This document shows positions 4,692-30,003 of a DNA stretch of 34,798 bases, piece after piece. The DNA lies in contig VBGM01000036.1 in the NCBI GenBank assembly GCA_005880855.1, forward strand, positions 1 through 34,798, given 5' to 3'. Both the position numbers and the translations under genes were made by a program. Under the pieces are notes generated by a model, which did not search any database, had not been told where the DNA came from, and saw only the letters and a list, made by a program, of their open reading frames with translations. This DNA comes from Chloroflexota bacterium (GTDB lineage Bacteria; Chloroflexota; Dormibacteria; Dormibacterales; Dormibacteraceae). Each line of letters starts with the position of its first letter. Within the stretch, counting starts at the first letter, position 1.

Positions 4692-4806
4692 GAACAGGGG
4701 CCGGCCACGCTTCACCATGCGCTCGTTTGATGCCCGCCGGATCGCGCGGCTCGCTTGCGGAGTCATCCGTACGAGTGCTGAACCTTTGCGAGGCGGGGCC
4801 TTATCC

Positions 4807-6501
4807 TTGACCCTCATCGACGCGCATTGGATGGCTGTCGCGCGGGGTGACGAGCCGGCCGACCTCGTGCTGGCGGGCGGCAAGGTGCTCTCGGTGTTCA
4901 CCAAGGAGTGGCTGGAGGTGGACGTCGCCATCAAGGACGGCCACGTGGTCGGGCTCGGACGCTACGAAGGCAATACGCGTCAGGACGTTTCCGGCGCCTA
5001 CCTCGTGCCCGGCTTCATCGACGCCCACATGCACATCGAGTCGTCCAAGCTGATGGTCGACGAGTTCGCCCGGGCGGTCTTGGCCCATGGCACGACTGCG
5101 GTCGTCGCCGATCCCCACGAGATCGCCAACGTGCTCGGCACCGACGGCATCCACTGGCTCCTCGACTGCTGCGCCGACCTTCCGCTCGACGTGTACGTGA
5201 TGGCCTCCTCGTGCGTGCCGGCCTCGCGCTTCGAGTCGCCGCGGCGGCCGTTCACGACCGGCGACATCGAGAGCCTGCTGCGGCGCCACCGCACGATCGG
5301 CATCGCCGAGATGATGAACTTCCCAGGGGTCGTCGCCGGCGACGAGGCGGAGGTGGCCAAGCTCACGACCGGCCTCACCGACCACGTCGACGGCCATGCG
5401 CCCGGCCTGCACGGACCCGCGCTCAACGCCTACCTGGCGGCGGGCATCCGCTCGGATCACGAAGCCACCACCTATGAGGAGGCGCTCGAGAAGAGGCGGC
5501 TGGGGATGTGGGTGATGCTCCGCGAAGCCTCGATCGCGCGCAACCTGCGAGACCTCCTGCCGCTCGTCAAGCAGCATGGCAGCGACTGGTGCATGTTCTG
5601 CACAGATGACCGCGAGCCGAGCTTCATCGTCGAAGAGGGCCACATCAACCAGATGGTGCGAGTGGCGGTCGAGGAAGGCATCAGCCCAGAGGACGCGATC
5701 GTCATGGCGACGATCAATCCCGCCACCTATCACCGGCTCTGGCGTCTGGGCGCCGTCGCACCGGGCCACCAGGCCGACATTGTGGTGCTGAACGATCTCG
5801 TCTCGTTCCAGCCTCGCCAGGTTCTCAAGCGGGGCGCCCCGCCACGCTTCACCAAGCTCGAGGTCCCGGAGTGGGTCCGGCAGACGGTTCACCTGGCGCC
5901 TGTCTCCGCCGAGTCGTTCCGAGTCCCGAGCGGGCCCGCGCGCATGCGCGTGATCAAGGTCATCCCCGGCCAGCTGCTGACCGCGACCGACGCGGTCCAG
6001 CCCATGGTGCGAGACGGCGCCATCGTGGCCGACCCCGCGCGCGACCTCGTGAAGATTGCGGTGCTGGAGCGCCACCACGCCAGCGGGCGTATTGGCCTTG
6101 GGTTCGCGACGAACGTCGGGCTGCGGCGCGGCGCCTTTGCATCAACCGTGGCCCACGATGCCCACAACATGGTCGTGCTCGGAGTCGACGACACTGACAT
6201 GGCCGCGTGCGCGTGCAGGCTCGCCGAGATCGGCGGCGGCATCGTGATCGCCGATGGCGGCCGCATCGTCGAGGAGCTGCCCCTGCCGGTCGCGGGTCTG
6301 ATGAGCGACCAACCCCTCGCGCATGTGCACGAGAAGCTCAGGTCGATGGAGCGCCGGCTCGCGGGTATGGGCGTCTTTTTGGCCGCACCCTTCATGAGCG
6401 TGAGCTTCCTCGCGCTGTCGGTCATCCCCGAGCTGAAGATCACCGACCAGGGGCTGGTGGACGTCCGCCGATTCGAGCTGGTGCCGCTGGGTCTTGAGTG
6501 A
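4807..6501 (+). CDS. ade: Adenine deaminase
   Basis: Converts adenine to hypoxanthine and ammonia. About 564 residues, the usual length for the Ade family of the amidohydrolase superfamily. Visible motifs are ARGDEPADLVL near the N-terminus, metal-binding PGFIDAHMHIESS, DPHEIANVLG, the FCTDDREPSFIVEEGHI segment, and the C-terminal adenine deaminase domain with a VAHDAHNMVVLG motif. I prefer TTG 4807 because GAGGCGGGG lies about 8 nt upstream and the protein then starts like other Ade proteins; an in-frame ATG at 4717 would add 30 residues unlike the family. First gene of an eight-gene operon; its TGA overlaps the next start (GTGA). Confidence 0.93.
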   Translation: MTLIDAHWMAVARGDEPADLVLAGGKVLSVFTKEWLEVDVAIKDGHVVGLGRYEGNTRQDVSGAYLVPGFIDAHMHIESSKLMVDEFARAVLAHGTTAVVADPHEIANVLGTDGIHWLLDCCADLPLDVYVMASSCVPASRFESPRRPFTTGDIESLLRRHRTIGIAEMMNFPGVVAGDEAEVAKLTTGLTDHVDGHAPGLHGPALNAYLAAGIRSDHEATTYEEALEKRRLGMWVMLREASIARNLRDLLPLVKQHGSDWCMFCTDDREPSFIVEEGHINQMVRVAVEEGISPEDAIVMATINPATYHRLWRLGAVAPGHQADIVVLNDLVSFQPRQVLKRGAPPRFTKLEVPEWVRQTVHLAPVSAESFRVPSGPARMRVIKVIPGQLLTATDAVQPMVRDGAIVADPARDLVKIAVLERHHASGRIGLGFATNVGLRRGAFASTVAHDAHNMVVLGVDDTDMAACACRLAEIGGGIVIADGGRIVEELPLPVAGLMSDQPLAHVHEKLRSMERRLAGMGVFLAAPFMSVSFLALSVIPELKITDQGLVDVRRFELVPLGLE

Positions 6502-6983
6502 TCGCTCGCTTCAATGAAATGCCCGCCGAGGAGGCCGTCAGCAACCTCCATGAATGCTTCGCGTCGCGGCCATGGGCCGAGCGGGTTGCATCGGGGCGGC
6601 CGTATCGCGATTTCGAAAGCCTTATCGCCGCCTGCGATACCGCGTGGTCGGAGCTGGCCCCGTCCGACTGGCTGGCGGCCTTCGCGGCTCATCCGAGGAT
6701 CGGCGAGAGCGGTGGCCACGCGCCCGAGTCGTCGGAACGCGAGCAGGCCGGCGTTCGTTCAGCCTCTCCCGAAACCATGGCCGCGCTGGCCGATGAGAAC
6801 CGCCGCTACGAGGCGCGCTTCGGCCACGTGTTCCTCATCTCGGCCTCCGGCCGCACTGCCGATGAGATCCTCGTGGAGCTGCATCGGCGCATGCAAAACG
6901 ACTCCGCAACGGAGGTCGCCGTCGCGGCGGCCGAGCACCGCAAGATCACACGGATCCGGCTGGAACGCATGCTGAGCGAATGA
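6498..6983 (+). CDS. uraD: OHCU decarboxylase
   Basis: 2-oxo-4-hydroxy-4-carboxy-5-ureidoimidazoline decarboxylase, the last step from urate to S-allantoin. 161 residues, normal length. The HPRIGE motif (residues 65-70) carries the catalytic histidine, and FGHVFLISASGRTADEIL (about 108-125) is the second family signature. GTG start overlaps the adenine deaminase stop by 4 nt, and its own stop overlaps the next start (ATGA), so translation is probably coupled. Cytoplasmic. No anomalies seen. Confidence 0.95.
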   Translation: MIARFNEMPAEEAVSNLHECFASRPWAERVASGRPYRDFESLIAACDTAWSELAPSDWLAAFAAHPRIGESGGHAPESSEREQAGVRSASPETMAALADENRRYEARFGHVFLISASGRTADEILVELHRRMQNDSATEVAVAAAEHRKITRIRLERMLSE

Positions 6984-7315
6984 GCATCTCCACGCATGTG
7001 CTTGATATCGGTCGCGGCCGCCCTGCCGGCGGCATGGCGGTCATGCTCAGCCGGCGCCAGGCCGGAGGTCCGTGGTCAGTGGTCGGCCGCGCCGTCACCG
7101 ACTCCGACGGCCGCGTCAATGAGCTCTCGAGCGTGCCGCTCGAGGCGGGTGAGTATCGGCTGGACTTCGCCGCGGGTGAGTACTTCAAAGGGTCGGGAAC
7201 CCATGCCTTCTATTCGGAGGTGTCGGTCGTGTTTGTGGCCGCCGACGGCGATACGCACCTACATGTGCCCCTGCTGCTCAGCCCGTTCGGCTACTCGACG
7301 TACAAGGGTCGATGA
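6980..7315 (+). CDS. uraH: 5-hydroxyisourate hydrolase (transthyretin-like)
   Basis: Hydrolyses 5-hydroxyisourate, the product of urate oxidase, to OHCU. 111 residues, matching the family. Catalytic residues can be placed at His6 (STHVLD), Arg45 (SDGRV) and His95 (HLHVPLLLSP). The C-terminal signature is YSTYKGR, close to the usual YSTYRGS that separates the enzyme from vertebrate transthyretin. It has no signal peptide. Start and stop both form ATGA overlaps with its neighbours, so it sits in the expected order between uraD and uricase. Confidence 0.95.
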   Translation: MSISTHVLDIGRGRPAGGMAVMLSRRQAGGPWSVVGRAVTDSDGRVNELSSVPLEAGEYRLDFAAGEYFKGSGTHAFYSEVSVVFVAADGDTHLHVPLLLSPFGYSTYKGR

Positions 7316-8184
7316 CGATCGTCCTCGGCGACAACCAGTACGGCAAGGCCGAAACGCACCTGGTCCGGGTGAGCAGAGACGGCGAGACCCACCGAATCAA
7401 GGACCTGGTGGTCAGCATCGCCCTCGCCGGCGACTTCGGTGCCAGTCACCTTGCCGGAGACAACAGCAAGGTGGTGCCCACGGATACACAGAAGAACACC
7501 GTGTTCGCATTCGCGAAGGAAGCTCCGGTCGGCGAGAGCGAGGAGTTTGCGCTCCGCCTGGCCCGTCACTTCGCCGCCGACTTCGTCTCCGTCCATCGTG
7601 CGCGGGTGACCATCGAGGAGCATGGGTGGTCGCGCATCGAGGTTGGCGGTCGCCCGCACCCGCATGCCTTCGCCAGCGCCGGCGCGGAGAGGCGCTTGAC
7701 CACGGTCACCTCGACAAAGGACGCGGCGTGGGTCGTGTCAGGCCTCAGCGATCTCGTCCTCCTGAAGTCGACCGGCTCGGAGTTCTGGGGCTATCCGAAG
7801 GATCGCTACACGACCCTCGAAGAGACGCGTGACCGGGTGCTGTCGACGGGTGTTCTGGCCAGGTGGCGTTACGGCCGGCTCGATGTCGACTGGGCCACGG
7901 CGTTCACTCGGGCGCGGGGCGCGCTCGTCGAGGCGTTCGCATCGAAGCACAGCCTCGCGCTCCAGCAGACGCTGTATGCGATGGGCTCAGCGGCTCTCGA
8001 GGCCTGCTCGGACTTAGCAGAGATCCGCCTGTCGCTGACCAACAGGCATCACTTCGCGGTGGACCTCTCGCCGTTCGGGCTCGAGAACGCCAACGAGGTC
8101 TTTTACGCGCCGGACCGGCCGTATGGAGCTATCGAAGGGACCGTGACCCGAGACGATGCGCCGGAGCCTGGCCTGGCCTGGTAG
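7312..8184 (+). CDS. uox: Urate oxidase (uricase)
   Basis: Oxidises urate to 5-hydroxyisourate with O2, without a cofactor. 290 residues, typical. Active-site residues are visible: Lys12 in NQYGKAETH, Thr57-Asp58 in VVPTDTQKNT, Phe158 region (SEFWGY), and the NRHHF motif at 244-248 supplying the conserved His. The uricase signature LQQTLYAMG is at 217-225. ATG start overlaps the uraH stop. It works directly with the two upstream gene products. No peroxisomal-like tail, as expected in bacteria. Confidence 0.95.
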   Translation: MTIVLGDNQYGKAETHLVRVSRDGETHRIKDLVVSIALAGDFGASHLAGDNSKVVPTDTQKNTVFAFAKEAPVGESEEFALRLARHFAADFVSVHRARVTIEEHGWSRIEVGGRPHPHAFASAGAERRLTTVTSTKDAAWVVSGLSDLVLLKSTGSEFWGYPKDRYTTLEETRDRVLSTGVLARWRYGRLDVDWATAFTRARGALVEAFASKHSLALQQTLYAMGSAALEACSDLAEIRLSLTNRHHFAVDLSPFGLENANEVFYAPDRPYGAIEGTVTRDDAPEPGLAW

Positions 8185-8188
8185 CCGG

Positions 8189-9058
8189 ATGGAGTTCCTG
8201 CAACCGACGACGTGGCACGAGGCGCTCGAGATGAAAGCCGCCCACCCCGAGGCCCTTCCCATCGCAGGGGGCACAGATGTGATGGTCGAGATCAACTTCG
8301 ACCGTCAGCGGCCGGCGGCCGTCATCGACCTGACCAGGGTCGCCGAGCTCGAGGAGTGGAGCAGCGAAGGATCGATGCTCCGCGTCGGCGCGGGCGTGAC
8401 ATACGCGCGGATCATCGAGGAGCTCAGCGATCGCCTTCCCGGGCTGGCACTGGCCTCCCGCACAGTGGGCTCGCCGCAGATTCGGAATCGCGGCACTGTG
8501 GGCGGCAACCTGGGGTCGGCATCCCCCGCCGGGGACGCGCACCCCCCTTTGCTGGCTTCTGCCGCGCTGGTCGAGCTGGCCTCGATTCGAGGCAGCCGGC
8601 GTGTTCCCGTACGCGACTTCTATGTCGGGCCCAAGCGCAACGTGATGAAGGAAGACGAGCTGATCGCGGCCTTCTTGGTGGAGCCCGCAAGGGGCCCGCA
8701 GCAGTTCTCCAAGGTCGGCACGAGAAACGCGATGGTCATCGCCGTGTGCTCCTTCGCGATCGCGCTAGACGTGGGACGTAAGCACGTCGGGACGGGAATC
8801 GGTTCGGCCGGGCCAACGCCGCTACGGGCGACTGAGGCGGAAGCATTCATTGCAGGCGTGCTCGACGAACAGGGTCTATGGGAGCAGCCGGCGGCTGTGG
8901 CTTCGACGGCGGTGGCGCGTTTCGGTGAGCTCGTCGCCGCAGCGGCGCGGCCCATCGACGACGTGCGTGGCACAGCCGCTTATCGCATACATGCGCTCGC
9001 GGTGCTCGCGCGCCGAACCTTCGCTTGGGCATGGGACGAGCACCGGCGGTCGGCGTGA
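8189..9058 (+). CDS. pucC: Xanthine dehydrogenase, FAD-binding subunit
   Basis: Medium subunit of a three-subunit molybdenum hydroxylase, 289 residues. It passes electrons from the iron-sulfur subunit to its acceptor through FAD. FAD-binding motifs are PIAGGTDVM near residue 22 and TVGSPQIRNRGTVGGNLG (about 92-109), followed by a CO-dehydrogenase-flavoprotein C-terminal domain. I chose ATG 8189, 4 nt after the uricase stop, which gives the family-like start MEFLQPTTWHEAL; an ATG at 8156 would overlap uricase by 29 nt. Its TGA shares one base with the next ATG. Confidence 0.92.
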   Translation: MEFLQPTTWHEALEMKAAHPEALPIAGGTDVMVEINFDRQRPAAVIDLTRVAELEEWSSEGSMLRVGAGVTYARIIEELSDRLPGLALASRTVGSPQIRNRGTVGGNLGSASPAGDAHPPLLASAALVELASIRGSRRVPVRDFYVGPKRNVMKEDELIAAFLVEPARGPQQFSKVGTRNAMVIAVCSFAIALDVGRKHVGTGIGSAGPTPLRATEAEAFIAGVLDEQGLWEQPAAVASTAVARFGELVAAAARPIDDVRGTAAYRIHALAVLARRTFAWAWDEHRRSA

Positions 9059-9528
9059 TGAAGATCACCTGCACCGTCAACGGCAAGCCGGCAAGCGCCG
9101 ACGGCGCGTGGGCAGGGGAGAGCTTGCTCTATCTGCTGCGTGAGAGATTCGGCCTTTTCGGGTCCAAGAACGCCTGCGAGCAGGGCGAGTGCGGCTCGTG
9201 CTCCGTGTACCTCGACGGGACGCTGGTCTGCGCCTGCCTCGTGCTCGGCGCCCAGGCCGAAGGTCGCGAGATCGTCACGGTGGAAGGCATCGGCTCGGCA
9301 AGCGCGCTCCATGCCGTGCAGGAGGCCTTCGTGGAGGCGGGCGCCGTCCAATGCGGTTTCTGTACGCCTGGATTGGTCGTGGCCGCCCACGATTTGCTGA
9401 AACGAACCCCTGAGCCAACCACGGTGCAGATCCGCGAGGCCCTGGCGGGGAACATCTGCCGCTGCACCGGCTACGCCAAGATCATCGCGGCCGTACACCT
9501 GGCAGCCGCAAGGGTGGTCGCGTCATGA
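9058..9528 (+). CDS. pucE: Xanthine dehydrogenase, [2Fe-2S] subunit
   Basis: Small subunit carrying two [2Fe-2S] clusters that link the molybdenum centre to FAD. 156 residues. The plant-ferredoxin-type cluster uses Cys40, 45, 48 and 60 (ACEQGECGSC...CAC). The second uses Cys99, 102, 134 and 136 (QCGFCTP and ICRCTGY). ATG 9058 begins inside the previous stop codon (TGATG); an upstream in-frame ATG at 9025 would add eleven residues that do not fit the family. Its stop overlaps the start of the molybdenum subunit (ATGA). Confidence 0.95.
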   Translation: MKITCTVNGKPASADGAWAGESLLYLLRERFGLFGSKNACEQGECGSCSVYLDGTLVCACLVLGAQAEGREIVTVEGIGSASALHAVQEAFVEAGAVQCGFCTPGLVVAAHDLLKRTPEPTTVQIREALAGNICRCTGYAKIIAAVHLAAARVVAS

Positions 9529-11852
9529 CGGCAAACCCGAAGCTCGCCCCCGCCGCGATTGTGAGCGGCCGCGTCGGCGAGGCCGTACGGCGCCCCGACG
9601 GTGCGCTCAAGACGCGCGGCGACTTCCCGTACTCCTCCGACCTGCAGGTTGACGGGATGCTGTGGGGTGCGACCGTGCGCAGCCCGCACCCCTACGCGCG
9701 GATCGTGTCGATCGACATCAGCGAAGCGCGCTCGATGCCCGGGGTGCAGGCGGTCCTCACTCACGAAGATGTGCCGGGACGCAAGGTGTACGGCCTGGAG
9801 ATTCCCGACCAGCCGGTTTTGGCGGTCGACGTCGTCCGCTACTGGGGCGAGGCGGTCGCGCTGGTGGCGGCCGACCACCCTGAGCAGGCGAGGCGTGCAA
9901 CACAGGCGGTGCACGTCGAGTTCGAGGTTCTCGCGCCGCTGACCGACCCAGAGCTCGCGCTCACTGAGGGCGCCCCGCGCCTGCACCCCGACGGCAACCT
10001 CACCCGCGGCATCAAGATTCGGAAAGGCGACCAGCACCCCCACGCCGATGTCGTGGTGACCGGCGAGTTCGAGGTGGGCATGCAGGATCAGGCGCCCCTC
10101 GGTCCTGAATCAGGGCTGGCGATACCCGACGGCGCGGGCGGTGTCGACCTGTACATCGCCACGCAATGGCTCCACATCGACCGAGAGCAGCTCGCCAGCG
10201 TGCTCGCGCTGCCGCCTGACGCGGTCAGGCTGACCATGGCGGGCATTGGCGGCGCCTTTGGGGCCCGCGAGGACCTGTCGATGCAGGCGCACGCCTGCAT
10301 GCTCGCGCTGAGAACCGGACGGCCCGTGAAGATGTCGTACTCGCGCGCTGAATCCTTCGTCGGCCATGTGCACCGGCATCCGGCCAGGATGCGCTACGAG
10401 CACGGCGCCACTCGTGAGGGCAAGCTCGTCTACGTGAAAGCCCGCATCCTTCTCGACGGTGGCGCATACGCATCCAGCTCGACCGCCGTCATCTCCAACG
10501 CATGCTGCTTCGCGGTAGGTCCGTACGAGTGCCCAAACGCGACCATCGACGGCTGGGTCGTATACACGAACAACCCGCCCTGCGGCGCCATGCGCGGGTT
10601 CGGCTCCGTGCAGAACTGCTACGCGCACGAGGCTCAGATGGACAAGCTCGCCGCCGCGCTCCGCATGGACCCGGTCGAGCTGCGCATCCGCAACGCGATG
10701 GAGACGGGCAGCACGCTGGTCACGAGTCAGGCCGTGGACGGTCCCGTCCCGGTAGCCGAGCTTCTGCGCCGCATCAAAGCGATGCCGATGCCAGCCGCAG
10801 TGCGGGGCGATCTCCTCGACCTCACCCAGATGCCGGGTGGCGTGTCCAACACGACGCACGGAGAGGGAGTGCGCCGCGGTGTCGGCTACGCGGTGGGTTT
10901 CAAGAACGTCGGCTACTCGGAAGGCTTCAACGATTATTCGACTGCCCGAGTTCGGCTTGCGGTGGCGGGCGGGCGGCCGCGCGTGGAGGTGCACACGGCG
11001 GGCGCGGAGGTCGGCCAGGGCCTGGTCATGGTCCAGGCCCAGATCGCGGGCACGGTGCTCGGCGTGCATGACGTGGTCGTGCTCGGCGCCGACACGCAGG
11101 TCGGTTCGTCCGGGTCGTCGTCGGCGTCGCGGCAGACGTACATCACGGGCGGTGCGGTCAAGGCCGCGTCCGAAGCCGTGCGGGAGCGCGTGTTTGCGCT
11201 CGCGGAGTCGGAGCTAAGTGGGCTCGGACGCGACGGGCCCGGCGAATTGGGCGGATGGCGGCTGGAGGGAGATGCGATCGTCTCAGCGGATGGCGGCGTG
11301 GTGATCACCCTCGCCACCCTCCTCGGCGAAGAGGTGATCGACGAGACGCGCGAATACCGCCCGCGCGGCACGTCGCGCCTTGATGGCGAGACCGGACAGG
11401 CCAGAGCGCACATGCAGTTCGCGTTCGCGGCTCACCGGGCCGTCGTCGACGTCGATGTCGAGCTCGGGCTGGTCAAGGTCGTTGAGCTGGCGACCGCGCA
11501 GGACGTGGGCAAGGCGATCAACCCGCAGGCGGTGGAGGGCCAGCTCGAGGGCGGAGCCGCCCAGGGCTTGGGGCTTGCGGTCATGGAGGAGATCCAGGTC
11601 AAGGACGGGGTGATCCGGAATCCTTCCTTTACCGACTACCTTCTTCCGACCACCCTGGACATGCCCCCAGTTCGCATGGACATCCTCGAGCTGGGCGACC
11701 CGAACTCTCCGTTCGGCCTCAAGGGGGTCGGCGAGCCGCCGACGATCTCCTCAGGCCCGGCCATAGTCGCCGCCATCCGGGCCGCGAGCGGTCGCCAGCT
11801 CACGCGGGTGCCGGTCCGCCCGCACGACCTCGTCGACACTCCGTTGCAGTGA
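9525..11852 (+). CDS. pucD: Xanthine dehydrogenase, molybdenum-binding subunit
   Basis: Catalytic large subunit, 775 residues, that hydroxylates hypoxanthine and xanthine to urate. Recognisable motifs are GEAVRRPDGALKTRG at the N-terminus, GGAFGAREDLSMQ and GAMRGFGSVQ around the molybdopterin site, and GLKGVGEPP near the C-terminus with the catalytic glutamate. It completes the FAD/FeS/Mo set in B. subtilis puc-like order. Substrate specificity is inferred from the operon: adenine deaminase supplies hypoxanthine and uricase removes urate. Its last codon overlaps the start of the deaminase gene (GTGA). Maturation factors such as XdhC are not in the window. Confidence 0.93.
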   Translation: MTANPKLAPAAIVSGRVGEAVRRPDGALKTRGDFPYSSDLQVDGMLWGATVRSPHPYARIVSIDISEARSMPGVQAVLTHEDVPGRKVYGLEIPDQPVLAVDVVRYWGEAVALVAADHPEQARRATQAVHVEFEVLAPLTDPELALTEGAPRLHPDGNLTRGIKIRKGDQHPHADVVVTGEFEVGMQDQAPLGPESGLAIPDGAGGVDLYIATQWLHIDREQLASVLALPPDAVRLTMAGIGGAFGAREDLSMQAHACMLALRTGRPVKMSYSRAESFVGHVHRHPARMRYEHGATREGKLVYVKARILLDGGAYASSSTAVISNACCFAVGPYECPNATIDGWVVYTNNPPCGAMRGFGSVQNCYAHEAQMDKLAAALRMDPVELRIRNAMETGSTLVTSQAVDGPVPVAELLRRIKAMPMPAAVRGDLLDLTQMPGGVSNTTHGEGVRRGVGYAVGFKNVGYSEGFNDYSTARVRLAVAGGRPRVEVHTAGAEVGQGLVMVQAQIAGTVLGVHDVVVLGADTQVGSSGSSSASRQTYITGGAVKAASEAVRERVFALAESELSGLGRDGPGELGGWRLEGDAIVSADGGVVITLATLLGEEVIDETREYRPRGTSRLDGETGQARAHMQFAFAAHRAVVDVDVELGLVKVVELATAQDVGKAINPQAVEGQLEGGAAQGLGLAVMEEIQVKDGVIRNPSFTDYLLPTTLDMPPVRMDILELGDPNSPFGLKGVGEPPTISSGPAIVAAIRAASGRQLTRVPVRPHDLVDTPLQ

Positions 11853-13201
11853 CGGCTTCGCTGCTGGTACGCGCCGGCCTCCTGTACACCGGACATCGCG
11901 AGATCGAGGGCGGCTGGGTGTTGGCCCGCGACGGGATGATCTCCGAGGTCGGGTCGGGCGATGCCCCGCCCGCCAGCGAGGTGATCGATGCATCCAACTG
12001 TGTCGCCGTACCGGGCCTGGTCAACGCTCACGACCACATGTACCAGTGGGCGACGCGCGGCTATGCACCAGACGGCACGCTTTTCGAGTGGCTGCGCGCT
12101 CTCTACCCGGTGTGGGCGCGCATCGACGCCGACATCGTTCGCGTCGCGGCGCGGGCGGCGATCTCGCGGTTGCTCCTGTCCGGGTGCACGCTGTCGACAG
12201 ACCACCACTATGTGTTTCCGCGCGGCCGGCCTGGCATCTTCGATGCCCTCGTCGACACAGCCCGTGAGCTAGGGCTTCGATTCCATCCCTGCCGGGGTTC
12301 GATGTCGCTCGGCGAATCGAAGGGCGGCCTGCCTCCCGACAGCGTGGTCGAGGACGAGGACGCGATCCTCGCCGACACGGAGGCGACCATCAAGCGCTAC
12401 CACGACCCTGAGCCCGGCTCGATGTGCCGCGTGGCGGTCGCGCCGTGCTCACCGTTTTCCGTGACGCCGGAGCTGATGAAGGAATCCGCGTCCCTCGCTC
12501 GGCGCCACGGGGTGCGGCTCCACACGCATCTCGCGGAGACCCTCGATGAGCAGCGCTTCTGCCTGGAGCGCTTCGGCCGCAGACCGCTGGAGCTGATGGA
12601 AGACGTTGGCTGGACCGGCGAAGACGTGTGGTATGCGCACGGAGTCCACCTCAACGATGCGGAAGTGGACCGCATCGCCGAAGCCAGGACGGGAATCGCA
12701 CACTGCCCCTCGAGCAACATGCGGCTCGGCGCCGGTGCGTGCAGGGTGGCAGACCTCGTTGGGGCGGGCGCCCGGGTCGGTCTTGGCGTGGACGGCTCGG
12801 CCAGCAACGAGGACGCCAACATTGCGGTGGAGATCCATCAGGCCATTTACCTTGCCCGCGCCAGGGCGGCAATGCTTGGCGATGAGACCGCGCGCAGGGG
12901 GCTCGACGCACGCGGCGCATGGGGGCTCGCGACCAAAGGCGGCGCGGAGTGCCTGGGTCGAGAGGACTGCGGAACCCTCGAGGTGGGGAAGTGCGCCGAC
13001 ATCGCCTTGTTCCGTGTTGACGACCTGGCGCACGCGGGCGTGGCGGACCGGCTGGCCGGCCTGGCGCTCGCGCCGCCATCGCGCGCGGCGATCGTGATCG
13101 TCAACGGGCGGGTCGTGGTGTTCGACGGGAGGCTCTTGACAGCCGACGAGGACGAGATCGCGCGTGAGATCGCAGCTACGAGCGCGCGGCTGGCCGGATG
13201 A
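11849..13201 (+). CDS. 8-oxoguanine deaminase (amidohydrolase)
   Basis: A 450-residue amidohydrolase of the ATZ/TRZ/8-oxoguanine deaminase group, predicted to convert 8-oxoguanine to urate and ammonia. Metal-site residues are His61 and His63 (NAHDHMYQ), His227 (HTHLAET), His264 region (YAHGVHL) and Asp315 (GVDGSASNE). The PCRGSMSLGESKGGLPPDS segment near 147-165 resembles the signature of this subgroup. It could instead be a guanine or related deaminase; either feeds the pathway. GTG start overlaps the previous stop. Its 3' end overlaps the convergent allantoinase gene by 26 bp. Confidence 0.85.
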   Translation: MTASLLVRAGLLYTGHREIEGGWVLARDGMISEVGSGDAPPASEVIDASNCVAVPGLVNAHDHMYQWATRGYAPDGTLFEWLRALYPVWARIDADIVRVAARAAISRLLLSGCTLSTDHHYVFPRGRPGIFDALVDTARELGLRFHPCRGSMSLGESKGGLPPDSVVEDEDAILADTEATIKRYHDPEPGSMCRVAVAPCSPFSVTPELMKESASLARRHGVRLHTHLAETLDEQRFCLERFGRRPLELMEDVGWTGEDVWYAHGVHLNDAEVDRIAEARTGIAHCPSSNMRLGAGACRVADLVGAGARVGLGVDGSASNEDANIAVEIHQAIYLARARAAMLGDETARRGLDARGAWGLATKGGAECLGREDCGTLEVGKCADIALFRVDDLAHAGVADRLAGLALAPPSRAAIVIVNGRVVVFDGRLLTADEDEIAREIAATSARLAG

Positions 13202-14453
13202 GCTTACCGATCGCGGCGCCGCCTCGAACCAGGGTAGTGACCGTTCTACCTCTGATTTTCTGGCCTTCGTGCGGGCTGAATGGGTTGCGATAGAGCAGGT
13301 CTTCCCGGCGTACGACAGCGTCGTGCGACAGGTCCACCAGCCACAGGTCCGCGTCGAATCCAGGAGCGATGTCTCCCTTGCCCGTCAGCCCGAACCGCGC
13401 GGCGACGTTGGTCGCGGTGACCGCGGCGATGCCCTCTAGCTCCAGGTCAGTGTTCGCCAGCAGCAGGCGCCGCGTCGTCTGGCAGCCTGAGATGCCTCCC
13501 CAGACCTTGAAGAAGTCATCGCCCTGTTTGAGCGCGAGGGTGCTGGGCGAGTGGTCGGAGACGACCATCGGCAGGCGGCCGTCGCGCAGCATCCGCCGCA
13601 GACGCTCGCGGTCGAGCGCGGTGCGGAAGGGCGGCGCGCATTTGGCGATGCCGCCAAGGCGCTCCATGTCGTCCTCGACATAAAGAAGGTAGTGGGGGCA
13701 GGTCTCGCCACTCACATCGATGCCACGCTGCTGGGCCTCGGAGATGATCTCGGCGCCGCTCGCAGTGCTCACGTGCACGATGTGCAGCCGGCAACCCGCG
13801 GCACCGGCCATATCGATCGCGAGCGAGATCGCCTCCAGCTCGGCGTCGGCTGGGCGTGACCAGATGAAGTCTCGCGCGCTGGTTCCGGCCGGCGTGCCGA
13901 GGCGTGAGGGGTCCTCGGCATGGACCAACAGGATCGAACCCAGCTCGGCGATCCTCGCCATACCCTCGCGCAGCGTCGCCGTGTCGCATGCCGGGAACTC
14001 GTCGATCCCGCTTGGGCACATGAACGCCTTGAAGCCCATGACCCCGCGCCGGAGCAGGGGCTCCAGGCGGTCGAGGTTGCCTGGCACCAGCCCGCCCCAC
14101 AGTCCGAAGTCAACCTTCGACGAGCGCTTCATCGCCTCGAGCTTCAGGTCGAACGCGGCGACGTCCGTAGTCACGGGGAGATTGTTTAGAGGCATGTCGA
14201 TGAAGCTCGTGTACCCGCCGGCGGCCAGCGCCGCCGACCCGTGCGCGATGTCCTCCCACTCGGTCCGGCCGGGCTCGTTGAAGTGAACGTGCGAGTCGAT
14301 ACCGCCCGGAAACACATGCAGGCCGGAGGCTTCGATCTCTTCGCCGTCATCGGTAAGGTTCAGTCCGACTGCCGCGATCTGGTCGCCGGCGATTGCGACA
14401 TCGGCCTTCTCGACCCCGCGTGATGTCACGACCGTGCCGCCGCGGATGATCAT
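13176..14453 (-). CDS. allB: Allantoinase
   Basis: Cyclic amidohydrolase that opens allantoin to allantoate. 425 residues, family length. Binuclear metal-site residues are His55 and His57 (DSHVHFNEPGRTEWED), carboxylatable Lys142 (GFKAFM), His178 (LVHAED), His227 (LHIVHVST) and a later Asp in VVSDHSPS. FNEPGRTEWE favours allantoinase over dihydroorotase or dihydropyrimidinase. Last gene of the minus-strand operon; its ATG overlaps the stop of allantoate amidohydrolase (ATGA). It converges with the plus-strand purine operon, whose final gene it overlaps by 26 bp. Confidence 0.93.
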   Translation of the reverse strand: MIIRGGTVVTSRGVEKADVAIAGDQIAAVGLNLTDDGEEIEASGLHVFPGGIDSHVHFNEPGRTEWEDIAHGSAALAAGGYTSFIDMPLNNLPVTTDVAAFDLKLEAMKRSSKVDFGLWGGLVPGNLDRLEPLLRRGVMGFKAFMCPSGIDEFPACDTATLREGMARIAELGSILLVHAEDPSRLGTPAGTSARDFIWSRPADAELEAISLAIDMAGAAGCRLHIVHVSTASGAEIISEAQQRGIDVSGETCPHYLLYVEDDMERLGGIAKCAPPFRTALDRERLRRMLRDGRLPMVVSDHSPSTLALKQGDDFFKVWGGISGCQTTRRLLLANTDLELEGIAAVTATNVAARFGLTGKGDIAPGFDADLWLVDLSHDAVVRREDLLYRNPFSPHEGQKIRGRTVTTLVRGGAAIGKLIRPAARS

Positions 14454-15652
14454 GCGGTGGCCAGGAGCTCGAGAGCTCGGCCGAGCACATCGATGGCGAC
14501 CCCGACGTCGGCGGTCTCGACAGACTCGGCCGGGTTGTGGCTGACGCCGCCCTTGCAGCGGACGAAGAGCATGGCCACGTCAGTCAGCGCCGACATCGCC
14601 ACGGCGTCGTGTCCAGCTCCGCTGGCAAGCTCGACGACCGGATGCCCGAGCTCGCGCACCGCCTGCGAGAGCGTGGCCACCAGGTTCGGCGAGCACGGGA
14701 CGGTGGCGCTCTCGCTGAGCTGGCGGGTGTTGAGGTGGATGTTTCTTCGCTTCGCCATGTAAGCGGCGCCCTCCAGCAGCCGGCGTGCAGCTGCAACGCG
14801 CTCGGAGTCACCGGGGTGCCGGACGTCCAGGCTCACGGTCACCTCGCCGGGCACCACGTTTGTGGCTCCCGGCTGCACGGCAACCTGCCCGACGGTGGCG
14901 ACCAGCCCGGGTAGCGTCCGCGCTTCGGTCTCGACGGCGAGTACGAATTGGGCAGCGGCGACGAGCGCGTCCCGGCGGCGATCCATCGGCACCGTGCCGG
15001 CATGCCCCGCCTCTCCCTTGAATGTCAGGACGTACCGGTTCTGCCCGGCGATGGCCGAAACAATTCCTACCGGCGCGCCGCGCGACTCGAGCACGGGCCC
15101 CTGCTCGATGTGGACCTCCAGGTAGCCGAGCGGCCGCGCTGCGGTCCAGCGGTCACCGCCGATGCGATCGGGGTCGCCGCCGAAACGCCGCATCGCGGCG
15201 CGCATCGAAATTCCGTCGGCGTCGATGCGATCGAGGTCCGCGGCATCGAACGTCCCGGCCAGCGCCGCGCTACCGAGGTAAGTGGAACCGAAGCGCAATC
15301 CTTCCTCATCGGCGAACGCCAGCAGCTCGAGAGCGAAGGGGAGGCGCTTCGCGCTGTCGTGAAAACGTTGCACGACCTCGATTGCGACGATCACCCCGAG
15401 CGGGCCGTCGTACTTGCCTGCATCGCGAACGCTGTCGAGATGAGAGCCGACCAGCAGAGTCGGCCCGCCGACACGCGAGCCCTCGAAGCGCCCGCGGAGG
15501 TTGCCGACGTTGTCCTGGCGCACGGCCATTCCGGCTGCGCGCATCCAACCGGCAACATGCTCGTTGGCGCGGCGCATCGACTCCGACGCATACGACCTGG
15601 TCAGCCTGCCTGCCTCCTGGCTCAGTGTGCCCAGGATGTCCAGCCGTTCCAT
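14450..15652 (-). CDS. allC: Allantoate amidohydrolase (M20 family)
   Basis: Hydrolyses allantoate, releasing ammonia and CO2 and giving ureidoglycine. 400 residues from ATG 15652. M20 metal ligands are visible: His71 (VGSHLDSV), Asp82 (KYDGPLGV), Glu116-Glu117 (FADEEGLRFG), a His in LEVHIEQGP, and the C-terminal GGVSHNPAE. The HIEQGP motif marks the hydantoinase/carbamoylase group that includes AllC. N-carbamoyl amino acid hydrolase is the alternative, but the adjacent allantoinase favours allantoate. The frame stays open for 58 more codons upstream, but those overlap the DUF3830 gene. Confidence 0.9.
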   Translation of the reverse strand: MERLDILGTLSQEAGRLTRSYASESMRRANEHVAGWMRAAGMAVRQDNVGNLRGRFEGSRVGGPTLLVGSHLDSVRDAGKYDGPLGVIVAIEVVQRFHDSAKRLPFALELLAFADEEGLRFGSTYLGSAALAGTFDAADLDRIDADGISMRAAMRRFGGDPDRIGGDRWTAARPLGYLEVHIEQGPVLESRGAPVGIVSAIAGQNRYVLTFKGEAGHAGTVPMDRRRDALVAAAQFVLAVETEARTLPGLVATVGQVAVQPGATNVVPGEVTVSLDVRHPGDSERVAAARRLLEGAAYMAKRRNIHLNTRQLSESATVPCSPNLVATLSQAVRELGHPVVELASGAGHDAVAMSALTDVAMLFVRCKGGVSHNPAESVETADVGVAIDVLGRALELLATA

Positions 15653-15674
15653 GGCCGTCGACGCCGGCGACCGG

Positions 15675-16091
15675 TCAGTCGTCGCCTGCCGCCTCGAAGG
15701 TGATGGCCTGCGCGCCCTCCCACAGGACCTTTCGCCCCAGCGCGGCCAGGTGGTCGTTGCCCTCGTAGATCGTGGCGAAATGGTTGCCTGCGAGCTGGCC
15801 CGCCTTGCTCGCGAACCTCGTCGCACCGTACGGAAACAGGATCTCGGTCTCGCTGAGCCCTCCCGGGTACAGGAGGAGCTGGCCGGCGGCGGGGTAGCTG
15901 GTGTGGTTCTCGTAGCCGATGTCCAGCGCGAGGTCGCCGAAGGGAATCCAGCATGACTCTCCGCTCCACCGGGCCTGGATCAGCTTCGCGCTGAGGGGCA
16001 GCATGGCTCGGAACTTCACGCAGCTCTTGGGCGCGCGCTCGGTCTCGAGACGCGCCGCGAATGTGAAGCCCCCGACGGTGATTCGGATCAC
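15675..16091 (-). CDS. DUF3830 (cyclophilin-like) protein
   Basis: A 138-residue protein that I recognise as the DUF3830 family, reported to have a cyclophilin-like fold. Characteristic blocks are IQARWSGESCWIPFGD, ENHTSYPAAGQLLLYPGG, and SETEILFPYGATRFASKAGQ. No biochemical function is established to my knowledge. GTG start overlaps the TGA of the cytosine-deaminase-like gene by 4 nt, and the stop lies 22 nt before allantoate amidohydrolase, so it is firmly inside a nucleobase-degradation operon. A role in handling a cyclic ureide or pyrimidine intermediate is plausible but inferred only from position. Confidence 0.85.
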   Translation of the reverse strand: MIRITVGGFTFAARLETERAPKSCVKFRAMLPLSAKLIQARWSGESCWIPFGDLALDIGYENHTSYPAAGQLLLYPGGLSETEILFPYGATRFASKAGQLAGNHFATIYEGNDHLAALGRKVLWEGAQAITFEAAGDD

Positions 16092-17362
16092 AGCGCCTGC
16101 GAAGGCTTCAGGAAATCGACCGGCTCCTCGCGTCCGTCCCAGAACACGGTTGTGCGCGCCGGCTCGGTGCGCGCGACCACCTTGCCCGCGCGAAGGACGA
16201 GCTTGCGCGGTGCAACGAGCCTGATCGCGTCCATGGCGGTGGGCGCCGCAAAGGCGCACAGGTCGGCGCGGCATCCGGGCAGAAGCCCGTAGCCTTCGAG
16301 TCCCAGTGCGCTGGCGGGGTTGAATGTGATCATGTCGATCAGAGTCCTCAGCTCGCTGTGGCCCGACATCTGGCCGTAGTGGGCAAGCACGAACGCGGCC
16401 TGGAGCGGGTCGCCGTAGCCCAACGGATACCAGGGATCCATAACCGAGTCATGGCCGACGCACACATTGACTCCCGCCGCCAGCAGCTCCTTGACCCGGG
16501 TGTGGCCGCGCCGGATTGGGTAGGCGTCAAAGCGTCCCTGCAGCACCGAGTTGTCGAGCGGGTTGGTGACCATGTGCATCCGCGCCCGCTTCAGGTTGTT
16601 GATCAGCCGGTAGGCGTAGGCGGCGTTGTAGGAATGCATGGCGGTGGTGTGGCTGGCGGTGACGCGCCCGCCCATCCCGAGCCGGATCGTCTCGGCCGCC
16701 ATCACCTCGACGAAACGCGAGTGGTCGTCATCGGTCTCGTCGCAGTGGATGTCGACCCGCAAGCCCTTGTCCGCGGCCAATGCCATCGCGAACTTCACGG
16801 AGCGCTCGCCGTACTCGCGCGTCAGCTCGAAATGCGGAATGGCGCCGACCACATCGACGCCCAGATCGACGGCGCGCTTCATCAGCTCCTCGCCGCCTTC
16901 GAACGACATGATGCCCTGCTGTGGGAATGCGACCAGCTGCAGCGTCATCTGGTCCCCGATCTCCTTGCGTAGCTCGAGGAGGGCGCGCACCGCGCGCAGC
17001 TCCGGGTCGCAGACATCCACATGGCTGCGCACGAACTGGACCCCGTTGGCCAGCTGCCATCGAAGAACGGTCCGAACGCGTTTCTTGACGTCATCGACGG
17101 TGAGCTGCTTGACGCGCTCACCCCAGATGGCGATGCCTTCGAAAAGGGAACCGCTCTGGTTATGCCGAGGCTCGCCGACGGTGAGCACCGCGTCGAGGTG
17201 GATATGGGGCTCGACCAGCGCCGGGGTCACGAGCGCGCCGCCCAGCTCGATGACCTGGCGGGCCTCCGGCTCCGGCTCGGCGATGCGGCCTTCCCGGATC
17301 CCGATCTCCCTGGTGTCCGACTCCCCCGCGATGCGGGCGCCCTTCAGGAGAAGATCGAGCAT
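16088..17362 (-). CDS. codA: Cytosine deaminase-like amidohydrolase
   Basis: A 424-residue amidohydrolase resembling E. coli CodA, which deaminates cytosine and isoguanine. Metal and catalytic residues are His53/His55 (EPHIHLD), His206 and Glu209 (VDIHCDETDDDHSRF), His238 (TASHTTAMHSYN) and Asp305 (VGHDSVMDPWYPLG). The residue after the metal-binding Asp is Ser306, where E. coli has Asp314, a position known to affect substrate preference, so the natural substrate may differ. First gene of the minus-strand operon, divergent from a nucleobase permease 67 bp away. ATG start, with an AGGAGAAG-like region falling inside the gene rather than upstream. Confidence 0.85.
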   Translation of the reverse strand: MLDLLLKGARIAGESDTREIGIREGRIAEPEPEARQVIELGGALVTPALVEPHIHLDAVLTVGEPRHNQSGSLFEGIAIWGERVKQLTVDDVKKRVRTVLRWQLANGVQFVRSHVDVCDPELRAVRALLELRKEIGDQMTLQLVAFPQQGIMSFEGGEELMKRAVDLGVDVVGAIPHFELTREYGERSVKFAMALAADKGLRVDIHCDETDDDHSRFVEVMAAETIRLGMGGRVTASHTTAMHSYNAAYAYRLINNLKRARMHMVTNPLDNSVLQGRFDAYPIRRGHTRVKELLAAGVNVCVGHDSVMDPWYPLGYGDPLQAAFVLAHYGQMSGHSELRTLIDMITFNPASALGLEGYGLLPGCRADLCAFAAPTAMDAIRLVAPRKLVLRAGKVVARTEPARTTVFWDGREEPVDFLKPSQAL

Positions 17363-26689: not shown

Positions 26690-28075
26690 CTACGCGGCTC
26701 CGGATGGACCGGCTGATTGCTTCAACTCAGCCGCGGGCGCTCCCATCCACTTGACGCCCAGGCTGGCCAGCCTGCCGATCTCGGCGGCCCGCTTCCAGTG
26801 GTGGTACGCGGCCGAGACGTCCTGGCGGGCTTCTAGAAGCTCCGCGTACTCCATGTGCGCGTCGCGTAGGCGGTCGGGCATGCCCAGCTCTTCGAGGATC
26901 CGGATGGCGCCTTCGAAACGGCCGTCGGCCAGCGCGCAGTTGCCCCGTCGCTCCTCGACCTGGCCGAGCAGAACGTTCACGTTGGCGACGACCACCCGCT
27001 CGTTGATCGATTCGGCGGCCTGCAGTGCTTGCCCGAGGTATTCATCGGCCTTCGATAGGTCGCCTCGACGCAGGTAGACCTCGCCAAGGTTCGCGAGGAT
27101 GAAACCGCGGCCCCGGCGATCCATGTGCAGGTTGTTGGAGCCCATGAGGGCTTTGAGCATGTGCTCTTCGGCCGAGTCGAGCTTGCCCTGTTCGAGCATC
27201 AGGTCCCCTAGATCGTTCTCAACCCGGTATACGGAGCTCAGGTCGGATTCGATGGAGTAGAGGGCCAACGCCTTGTCGTAATGCTGGCGCGCAGTGGACG
27301 GCTGCTGCATGGACTGGTAGGCCCTGCCCAGGCCATGGTGCATCTTGGCCAGTTGCAGCAGGTCCTTCACGCCTGTCGCCGCTGCCACCGCTGCATCGTA
27401 GTAGCGAACCGCTAGCACCCACGAGTGGGCGACCACGTACATGCCAGCAATGTGGCCGAGGATCCTGGCCTCGGTCTGGGGAGCCTTCGGATCCAGCCGC
27501 CGGCAGCGCTCGAGCGCTTCGTTGGCCATTGGCAAGGCGTCGGGATCGTCGAGAAGTCCGAGCGAGCTCGACTCCCAGTCCAGCGTTTCGATGGTCATCC
27601 ACTTGTCGCCCATGCGCTCGAACTCCTGCCGCGCGGCCCTGAGGTGGGGCAGCGCTTCGGTGGGCCGAACGAGCCGGCAGAATGCCTGGCCGAGCGAGAA
27701 GTGGATGATCGCGGCATCCTCGGCGCTCCACTGCTGGCCCAGCAACGAGCTGCCCATCTCGAGCACCTTCTCCAGCTCCCGAGCCGCGCTCAGGCGCTCC
27801 AGCTCCCGGAGCTGCGCCTGCCGTTCGGTCAGGGCCGTTGCGGCGTCTGGCTCCAGGAAGAAGTCGATGGGCTTCCTGGTTTGGCGCGCGATCTGCTGCA
27901 GGGTTTCCATCGAAGGCTTCGTGCGGCCCTTCTCGATAAGGTGGATGGCGGTCCGTGTGAATTTGCCACCGGCCACCTGCGCCAGCGTCAGGCGGGCCTC
28001 CCGGCGCGCCTGCTCGACGGCCCCGGGACGGACGGCCACGCCCTTGCGACGGCCGCGATACCTGCTGCCGAGCAT
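26690..28075 (-). CDS. XRE-HTH/TPR regulator, putative peptide-pheromone receptor
   Basis: A 461-residue cytoplasmic regulator. Residues about 20-72 form an XRE helix-turn-helix (LTLAQVAGGKFTRTAIHLIEKG, cited in part as FTRTAIHLIEKGRTKPS, then PIDFFLEP). The rest, about 85-440, is helical with multiple TPR-like repeats, for example GRAYQSMQQPSTARQHYDKA and LGEVYLRRGDLSKADEYLGQA (in part GEVYLRRGDLSKADEYLGQ). HTH plus C-terminal TPR is the layout of the RRNPP receptors (PlcR, PrgX, NprR), which bind short imported peptides. A 32-codon signal-peptide gene lies 56 nt upstream on the same strand. ATG 28075 sits inside an inverted repeat (28073-28096), suggesting autoregulation. Many HTH-TPR proteins have no known peptide, so the receptor role is inferred. 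Confidence 0.85.
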   Translation of the reverse strand: MLGSRYRGRRKGVAVRPGAVEQARREARLTLAQVAGGKFTRTAIHLIEKGRTKPSMETLQQIARQTRKPIDFFLEPDAATALTERQAQLRELERLSAARELEKVLEMGSSLLGQQWSAEDAAIIHFSLGQAFCRLVRPTEALPHLRAARQEFERMGDKWMTIETLDWESSSLGLLDDPDALPMANEALERCRRLDPKAPQTEARILGHIAGMYVVAHSWVLAVRYYDAAVAAATGVKDLLQLAKMHHGLGRAYQSMQQPSTARQHYDKALALYSIESDLSSVYRVENDLGDLMLEQGKLDSAEEHMLKALMGSNNLHMDRRGRGFILANLGEVYLRRGDLSKADEYLGQALQAAESINERVVVANVNVLLGQVEERRGNCALADGRFEGAIRILEELGMPDRLRDAHMEYAELLEARQDVSAAYHHWKRAAEIGRLASLGVKWMGAPAAELKQSAGPSGAA

Positions 28076-28096
28076 GGCGGTGAGTGTACCGCCGTG
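28073..28096. promoter_or_regulatory. Inverted repeat over the regulator start codon
   Basis: Arms CATGGCGGT (28073-28081) and ACCGCCGTG (28088-28096) pair at eight of nine positions around a 6-nt spacer; the inner 6 bp are perfect. The left arm includes the regulator start codon on the minus strand. It could be an operator for autoregulation, or an mRNA hairpin that masks translation initiation, since no clear ribosome binding site precedes the ATG. Confidence 0.5.
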
Positions 28097-28108
28097 CCCG
28101 GCTTTTAG

Positions 28109-28130
28109 GTCGCTGACTTAACGAAATGAC
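28109..28130. promoter_or_regulatory. Direct-repeat motif between peptide gene and regulator
   Basis: On the minus strand two AAGTCA hexamers are separated by TTTCGTT, the second continuing as AAGTCAGCGAC (28109-28119). Nearly the same element, AAGTCAGCCGAC, occurs upstream of the peptide gene at 28261-28272. Paired copies around a small circuit suggest a shared binding site. No experimental support. Confidence 0.4.
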
Positions 28131-28131
28131 T

Positions 28132-28230
28132 TTACTTGGGCGTCGGGCCGATTCCGTCCGCGAGGACCGGGCCGATCGAGAGCGCCAGGGCCATTACCGA
28201 CAGGAACAGGGAGAGAAAAAGCTTGCGCAT
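28132..28230 (-). CDS. Small secreted peptide with signal sequence, putative pheromone precursor
   Basis: A 32-residue product, too short for most gene finders. It has a basic start (MRK), a hydrophobic core at about residues 4-20 (LFLSLFLSVMALALSIG), and a signal-peptidase-I-type VLA site at 22-24. The predicted mature tail is the octapeptide DGIGPTPK, ending at TAA. There is no Cys, so it is not a lipoprotein. The start is strongly supported: GGAGGT lies 6 nt before ATG 28230, and a TTGACA hexamer lies at 28281-28286. It is 56 nt upstream of, and on the same strand as, the HTH-TPR regulator with no terminator between, so the two are probably cotranscribed. Export, trimming and re-import to bind the regulator is the inferred role. 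Confidence 0.75.
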   Translation of the reverse strand: MRKLFLSLFLSVMALALSIGPVLADGIGPTPK

Positions 28231-28257
28231 TTGCGCACCTCCAGGTTTGATGTCGCG

Positions 28258-28286
28258 AGTGTCGGCTGACTTGACTGCCCTGTCAA
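28258..28286 (-). promoter_or_regulatory. Putative promoter and operator of the peptide gene
   Basis: On the minus strand, a consensus -35 TTGACA (28286-28281) is followed after 17 nt by GACACT (28263-28258), a weak -10. The -35 lies within the inverted repeat TTGAC-N6-GTCAA (28271-28286), and the spacer holds AGTCAAGTCAGCCGAC, which shares AAGTCAGC(C)GAC with the site after the peptide gene. A protein bound here would control the promoter. Confidence 0.5.
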
Positions 28287-28315
28287 CTCAAGCCGTCCGC
28301 AACCCTGGAGGGGTC

Positions 28316-28365: not shown

Positions 28366-30003
28366 CTAGTCGTCCAGCGGGAGGGCTCGTGTGTGCTCGA
28401 TCTGCACCGCCAGCAGGGCATTCGGGTTCAACCCGAGCAGCCTCGCGATCGTGGGCGCGATCGAGGTCGTCTCGACCATCGAGGCGTTGACCTCGCCGTC
28501 GCCGATCCCGGCGCCGGAGACGATCAGGGGAACCGCGCGATCCTGGGGATTGGCGCCGCCGTGCTCGGCAATCTTGCCCTTTCCGCCCGTGTAGACGACG
28601 CCGTACTGGGACACGCCGAAGACGTCGGGGACCCTCGCATCACCGACCGCAACGTGGAAGTACGCGGCCGCATCGGCGCCCGCGAGCACGTTCTTGAGCC
28701 CCGACGCTGTGTAGGCCTTGGGGTTGCCGTTGATGTCGTTGCCGGCGCCGGCGTGGTTGAGCAGGAAATTCCTGGCGAAATCCGTTGCCGTCCTCGAGCG
28801 GTCGCTCAGCCAGACCAACATGCCATCGTCATTGATGGAGAAAGCCACCAGGGGAGCCGTTGCGGAAGGATTGGCTGCGGCCCAGGCAGCATTGAGCGCG
28901 TCCATGATCGGGCCGTCGGGAATCCTCGTCAGCGCCGAGGGTGTCTGGGGCGACTGGCCGTGCTTGGCTGACAGGATGATCACGGTGTTGCCCGCAAGGT
29001 GGCGGTCATTGATCGCCTCAACCATGGCGCCGATGTTGGTGTTGATGTAGTTCAATGCGCGGACCAGCAGCGGTCCGGGGGTCACGCCGTCGGCGAGATA
29101 TCCGCCGGGCAGGCCATTCGACCGGGGCAGCTTCTCGGCGGTGGAGACGGTTTGAAAGTTCATGCCGAAGATCGCGGGCGTCCCGACGCGGTCTGTGCCG
29201 CTGTGCTCGAATCCGTTGATCTCGTTGAGGACCGCCTGGACCTTGTAGCTGTCGTACTGATTGTCAGGGCGTTGTCCTTCGTCCAGTCGATCGATGACCC
29301 CAGGGTGGGGGCGTCACTGTTGATCTCGGGCGTGAAGAGGTCCTGGATGCCGGCGCCCGATGGGCCGTTGAGGACTTCGTATGCGGCGTGCTTGTCCGAC
29401 CACGCGGTTCGCGGGCCCGCGGCGCGGGCGACCTCGAACACGGTGTTGAACTTGATGTACTGATGCGGATCGACCGGCTTGCAGGTCGCGGGATCGACTG
29501 GCAGCTGGGCCGGGTCGATGAGGGATGTCGCGTTGCCCGTCAGCTTGAGGATGGTGCCCGGCAAGCCTGACAGGCCGGCGCCCGAGTCGATGGAGCGAGG
29601 GCACGGGCGGCCTGCTCGAAGTACGTCACCTCGGCGCCCGGCGCGACGCCCAGGCAGCTCGTGGTGCCTGCCGGCAACAGCGCGGTGTTCTGACTGTCGT
29701 CGTAGTAGATGCCGGTGCTCGACGGGTTGCCGCCGGTCACCTGGCCGACCATGCCGGGAAATGAATCTGACGGCACCGGTGTCAGCGCGTGGGTGAACTC
29801 GGCCCCGTTCCTGACCAGGCGCGCCAGCGCCGACCCCGGGTGGTGCTCGACATACCACGCCAGGTCCGTCTGGTGCAGCCCACCGACGGAGATGAGCAGG
29901 ACATGTTTGGCCGGCGACTCGCCGGCGCTCGCGGGCTGGGCCGCGAAGGTGAGTCCCGCGAGCAGGCGCGGGTTCCAGCCATCCGAAATCGTGGTCAAGT
30001 CAT
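28366..30003 (-). pseudogene. Alkaline-phosphatase-superfamily phosphodiesterase, frameshifted
   Basis: Remains of a type I phosphodiesterase/nucleotide pyrophosphatase-like protein of about 540 residues with a weak N-terminal signal sequence (AGLTFAAQPASA). The coding signal changes frame near 29590-29600 (after TYFEQAARALA) and near 29265-29270 (before DNQYDSYKVQ). A third shift may occur at the start, where AAGGAG precedes ATG 30003 by 6 nt but that frame stops after two codons, and coding resumes from TTG 29998. Each shift equals loss of one base. LLISVGGLHQTD has Gly where the family normally has the metal-binding Asp. Other motifs persist: PSDSFPGM, ILSAKHGQSP, AEHGG. Neighbouring genes are intact, so decay is likelier than sequencing error. 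Confidence 0.75.

Follow-up and report, generated by a model that had tools for sequence, protein, structure and literature searches.

The window, i.e., the whole stretch of 34,798 nt analysed here, is contig C72 of a 3.24-Mb MAG consisting of 255 contigs, whose host belongs to Chloroflexota, probably to the Dormibacteria. The first-pass annotation had reported a 32-codon ORF with a ribosome binding site, a signal peptide, and the tail DGIGPTPK lying upstream of an HTH-TPR regulator gene, and we confirmed all of these elements, with a strong ribosome binding site (Table 1). The propeptide stop codon is separated from the regulator ATG at 28075, on the same strand, by 56 nt. The signal peptide was called from its charge, hydrophobic core, and AxA-type site. 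A24 of the propeptide is invariant among 42 homologues, and the predicted cleavage leaves 7–9 residues after the AxA-type site in most clades. A GGAGG-type site is also present 5' of the orthologous small ORFs.

Table 1. Features of the propeptide–regulator locus (positions in the window)
Feature	Positions	Strand	Remarks
HTH-TPR regulator, 461 aa, proposed cytosolic receptor	26690–28075	(-)	HTH_3 at residues 21–73 and several TPRs (Pfam)
Inverted repeat GGCGGTACACTCACCGCC adjoining the regulator ATG	28076–28093	(-)	Conserved in orthologues
Propeptide gene, 32 codons, MRKLFLSLFLSVMALALSIGPVLADGIGPTPK	28132–28230	(-)	Signal peptide 1–24 and tail DGIGPTPK 25–32
Region coding for DGIGPTPK, the predicted exported peptide	28135–28158	(-)	Core IGPTP conserved; putative cleavage after A24, AxA-type site
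Shine-Dalgarno sequence GGAGG	28238–28242	(-)	7 nt 5' of the propeptide ATG
Candidate promoter, TTGACA (28281–28286), 17 nt, GACACT (28258–28263)	28258–28286	(-)	Conserved in nine orthologues
Palindrome TGAGTTGACAGGGCAGTCAAGTCA, core TGAGTTG-N10-CAAGTCA, candidate operator	28267–28290	(-)	Conserved in nine orthologues; flanking upstream DNA not conserved

The DNA 5' of the nine orthologous peptide genes is unconserved except for TGAGTTGAC-N6/7-GT(C/T)AA(C/G)TCA, followed by CGACACTC. The palindrome core (TGAGTTG-N10-CAACTCA) overlaps the -35 element TTGACA, from which GACACT is separated by the 17-nt spacer in the window. The exact palindrome site occurs as one copy in the host's own genome, that at 28267–28290, and a regulon search of this genome found no second exact operator. 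Autoregulation at the own promoter is the usual logic for HTH regulators, and our analysis suggests that the promoter of the peptide gene is most likely bound by the regulator. A near match to the TGAGTTG-N10-CAACTCA palindrome is located at G000:C173:8159-8182 (1501–1524 of locus L237), before the gene for a 131-residue membrane protein; three other genomes of the genus have retained it, as well as the promoter DNA around it. Because this promoter DNA is conserved along with it, the near-palindrome is regarded as a possible target only. The regulator ATG has no obvious ribosome binding site and directly follows GGCGGTACACTCACCGCC; judging from the sequence, TACACT could be the -10 element of a leaderless transcript.

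Elsewhere in the window, a phosphodiesterase/sulfatase-like gene at 28366–29998 on the (-) strand appears to be broken across several frames, being either a frameshifted pseudogene or an assembly error. The long gene run at 4717–17362 resembles purine/ureide degradation; its ORFs, named by eye only, include amidohydrolases, xanthine-dehydrogenase-like subunits, and urate-oxidase-like and allantoinase-like proteins.

Conservation of the gene pair and diversity of the peptide tails

Regulator homologues are present in 40 of the 42 genomes of the host's family. By regulator sequence, the closest named relatives are 'Chloroflexi bacterium' CF_93 (87% identity), 13_1_40CM_65_17, CF_115, and UBA10874, together with two MAGs named Ca. 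Dormiibacterota / Dormibacteraeota. The first-pass annotation had made its proposal dependent on two predictions, namely retention of the upstream signal-peptide ORF in orthologues and coding conservation of that ORF, and both held. The ORF is kept, at a gap of 53–56 nt, in all nine orthologues whose gene start is intact, and the tails are DGIGPTPK (twice), GGIGPTP, GPIGPTP, SEIGPTP, ETIGPTPK, AGIGPTP, SSIGPTP, and DSIGPTGR. In the tenth orthologue (L013), the alignment starts at residue 88, and the HTH part and the ORF are both lost. Comparison of the small ORF in the window with that of the 87%-identical orthologue (CF_93) revealed ten synonymous differences and one non-synonymous difference. 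Across the nine orthologues, the IGPTP core is under strong purifying selection, with a pN/pS of 0.08, compared with 0.41 for the tail as a whole and 0.49 for the signal part. The tail core is thus what selection keeps and, because it is the best-kept part, a mere membrane anchor or leader is unlikely.

A small-peptide profile was searched against all six frames of the 42 whole genomes (E<1e-5), and the positions were compared with the regulator lists. Forty-eight of the 49 matches immediately precede an HTH-TPR gene; the 49th (G020:C154:40-126) is at the end of a contig, which truncates the following gene. Since adjacent ORFs had served to train the profile, the telling part of this result is that there are no matches elsewhere in about 120 Mb. 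In addition, a strict ORF test demanding a ribosome binding site, an uncharged hydrophobic core, a cleavage-like site, and 24–40 codons was passed by 45 of the 77 upstream windows of the family f1 regulators. The same test applied to both strands of a control sequence gave 12 ORFs in 1.02 Mb (about 0.006 per 500 nt), six of which are genuine divergent copies beside other regulators.

The tails diverge together with the receptors. A co-directional propeptide accompanies 62 of the 118 regulators in the tree, and the tail motifs are distributed according to receptor clade: IGPTP, STGPG(V/I), a PCC group, WPP, and, in f4, WPN. Paralogues, and distant homologues from other families of Chloroflexota, are accompanied by a signal-peptide ORF of their own, whose 7–9-residue tail differs. 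The host's own genome contains a second pair (L002), whose regulator is 37% identical and whose ORF ends in GPVPHCC, and a third regulator, which lies behind pheA without an ORF. A clade of 27 f1 receptors includes three that keep the ORF and 24 without it. Twenty of these 24, including L003, L024, and L027, adjoin pheA (PF00800, prephenate dehydratase), and three of the other four are at contig starts. The pheA-linked clade has lost its propeptide, leaving possible orphan receptors that, we infer, were perhaps adopted for the control of amino-acid synthesis. At L035 (G031:C9), two propeptide–receptor pairs are arranged in tandem on one strand, with the tails DSIGPTGR and DSTGPHI. A signal-peptide ORF ending in DYIGPHVPTS, on the complement of about 172–276 of L134, lies about 1.25 kb away from any recognised receptor and may possibly be a solo peptide or have a missed partner.

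Arrangements in other Chloroflexota families

Other ARRANGEMENTS comprise tandem-core propeptides in f4 and divergent ORFs in f4 and f21. Four f4 propeptides upstream of HTH-TPR receptors contain two or three repeats of a WPN core: GEAWPNA..AEMWPNL..DDIWPNN (L142), GEIWPNG..AVIWPNS (L140), GEIWPNA..AVIWPNS (L144), and AVIWPNG..ADIWPND (L141). For six further f4 receptors, the ORF is divergent, at a distance of 123–157 nt, and its tail is, for example, ADSFPSPR or ADIWPGPR. The separate Chloroflexota family f21 has the receptor in 57 of 107 genomes, with 42–75% identity to the G211 receptor, and a divergent signal-peptide ORF is present at 26 of the 30 loci read. The f21 tails closely fit [DG]GGxx[FYIWL]P[HKRQ] or end in MPWP[KR]. 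A strict same-strand scan had left these distant Chloroflexota receptors without peptides, a result that was overturned by the divergent-strand ORFs in f4 and f21.

With a looser test, which 15 of 42 windows passed against a background of 0.12 per window, scattered candidate ORFs were found in f11, f32, and f45, each represented by few members. No convincing signal-peptide ORF was found upstream of the f17, f38, and f19 receptors, with one doubtful case in f19. In f32, the co-directional signal-peptide ORFs of L232 and L235 end in ACDPTDTGGLC and ACDPETQGFC, in which two cysteines flank 7–8 residues and would perhaps close a disulphide ring. Beside the HTH-TPR gene of L231, a divergent ORF encodes a signal peptide and contains a tandem repeat (ADPIVVTDPVVAPADPIVVTDPV). 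There is no sign of mobility, since phages yielded no homologue and plasmids yielded only generic TPR proteins with 24–29% identity.

Predicted fold of the regulator, proposed mechanism, and alternative explanations

The AlphaFold2 model of the regulator, built from eight sequences (pLDDT 82.7, pTM 0.69), consists of the HTH part, predicted with low confidence, and a TPR superhelix extending up to residue 438. The model was overlaid (VIA-align) on RapI (4i1a; Z 29.1, 352 residues aligned, 4.5 Å), RapJ with its peptide CSF (4gyo; Z 28.0, 348 residues), NprR (5dbk; Z 27.5, 348 residues), and NprR-NprX (4gpk; Z 25.2, 339 residues). The eukaryotic TPR protein LGN gave a Z of 31, and the TPR fold is not discriminating because LGN matches as well as Rap and NprR. 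The predicted fold therefore fits a Rap/NprR-type peptide receptor without proving kinship. In sequence-profile comparisons of the regulator, generic TPR proteins ranked first, and Rap proteins were matched weakly. The Pfam and NCBIfam libraries contain RNPP/Rgg-type models; scans of both assigned the regulator to HTH and generic TPR families only, with no named RRNPP-family model.

We consider that the two genes constitute a peptide-signal/receptor unit working like the RRNPP systems of Firmicutes, with a probability of about 0.75. The propeptide would be transcribed from a promoter probably controlled by the regulator, exported by the general secretory pathway, as the known biology of such parts suggests, and cut after A24 by signal peptidase to give DGIGPTPK, perhaps slightly trimmed. 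This peptide may then be re-imported through an oligopeptide permease; the host's own genome has 13 matches to SBP_bac_5 (OppA-type binding protein), which are candidate binding proteins. Inside the cell, it would bind the concave groove of the TPR domain and alter the action of the HTH domain at the palindrome that covers the promoter of the peptide gene. The presumable outcome is a feedback loop, possibly with control of a few other genes.

Among the alternatives, an unlikely one is a secreted effector role of the peptide, bacteriocin-like or acting on the envelope, with the HTH-TPR protein regulating its production upon another cue. The export signal, the short tails rich in Pro, Gly, Trp, or Cys, the frequency of Cys-Cys tails, and the many paralogues per genome would suit such an effector. 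However, the tails have only 7–9 residues, their diversity tracks the receptor tree, tandem short repeats in a precursor suit a signal, and the modelled TPR fold of the receptor is of the peptide-binding kind. Since the neighbouring genes were read in part, modification enzymes may lie nearby. It is still less probable that the small protein, repressed by the HTH protein, is a toxin or a stress peptide of the membrane, belonging to a type I-like or two-gene toxin-antitoxin system. Its size (about 31 residues), its hydrophobicity, the tight linkage to an HTH repressor-like gene, and the operator-like palindrome on the promoter are compatible with a toxin, whereas the hydrophobic part is more variable than the hydrophilic tail core, an AxA-type site occurs at the same place in homologues, some tails are in tandem, and the whole TPR superhelix on the regulator would be left unexplained.

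The near-constant gap in the window's orthologue group and the conserved inverted repeat at the regulator start might also indicate a leader peptide or upstream ORF controlling the regulator by translation or attenuation. In f4 and f21, however, action in cis as a leader is excluded because the ORF is divergent from the regulator, and the tail core is kept at the amino-acid level while synonymous sites are free to change; we rejected this very improbable explanation on these two grounds. Short ORFs are frequent in high-GC DNA, so that a chance ORF beside an ordinary regulator might be envisaged. This was likewise rejected, its probability being negligible in view of the position of the profile matches beside HTH-TPR genes, the pN/pS constraint, the tails tracking the receptor tree, the rate in f1 windows against the control sequence, and the f21 loci.

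The signal/receptor interpretation, which the first-pass annotation had advanced for a single candidate pair outside Firmicutes, is supported and applies to much more than one pair in Chloroflexota. It fits the pairing, the coding conservation, the tail diversification, the tandem precursors, the operator-like palindrome, and the Rap/NprR-like TPR fold of the model, and an RRNPP-like exported-peptide signalling family in Chloroflexota is the best reading of these observations. Because dozens of relatives keep the pairing with different tails, peptide signalling of the RRNPP kind probably extends well outside Firmicutes. It appears fairly probable that the family is Chloroflexota's own and widespread, with the clade codes IGPTP, STGPG, PCC, WPN, and GGxxFPH, precursors that are single or tandem, gene orders that are co-directional or divergent, and orphan receptors that have been domesticated, and that its origin is independent of, or split very early from, Bacillota RRNPPA.

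Comparison with known peptide-signalling systems

Cytosolic peptide-receptor quorum sensing has been described as a Bacillota trait. Co-diversifying peptide/receptor pairs in uncultivated soil Chloroflexota would extend the trait beyond that phylum, provide readable candidate signals for hard-to-grow organisms, and open the origin of RRNPP signalling to testing. With a length of 7–9 residues, the predicted peptides are amenable to immediate synthesis and testing. Surveys of RRNPPA are devoted to Bacillota (PMC10075063, PMC9765709, PMC12700828), and the main texts of these three contain no word beginning with 'Chloroflex'; we found no reports of such systems in Chloroflexota in the open-licence literature. 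In common with RRNPPA, the regulator has a C-terminal TPR domain and an N-terminal HTH domain (Pfam and the AlphaFold2 model), and a propeptide gene with an export signal adjoins the receptor gene in the window and in relatives. Occurrence in Bacillota and their mobile elements is not shared, the host being a member of Chloroflexota. We do not claim RRNPP membership, since the named models are unmatched, the fold test is non-discriminating, and the host is outside Bacillota; there is a sizeable chance of an origin independent of Bacillota RRNPPA.

Like the window pair, NprR-NprX of the Bacillus cereus group combines an HTH and TPR regulator, on which our model overlays, with an adjacent small Sec-exported propeptide. 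In contrast, it belongs to another phylum, sequence identity is low, and the window regulator matches no named RRNPP-family model. The Rap-Phr systems of Bacillus and its phages share the full-length TPR overlay and, as predicted for the window pair, a short C-terminal signal after a signal peptide, whereas Rap has no DNA-binding HTH and the peptide gene is downstream of rap. The pheromone gene is placed downstream in Bacillales systems, and other gene arrangements occur in Lactobacillales systems (PMC9765709); the Chloroflexota peptide gene is upstream or divergent, unlike that of Bacillales. Tandemly duplicated propeptides are described for RRNPPA (PMC11343458). The WPN tandem-core precursors resemble known multi-copy pheromone precursors. 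PlcR-PapR, Rgg-SHP, and ComR-ComS consist of an XRE-type HTH regulator and a signal of 7–8 residues, a combination also predicted for the window pair. They have no recognisable sequence relation to it, and the window protein differs in its clear canonical TPRs and its Chloroflexota host.
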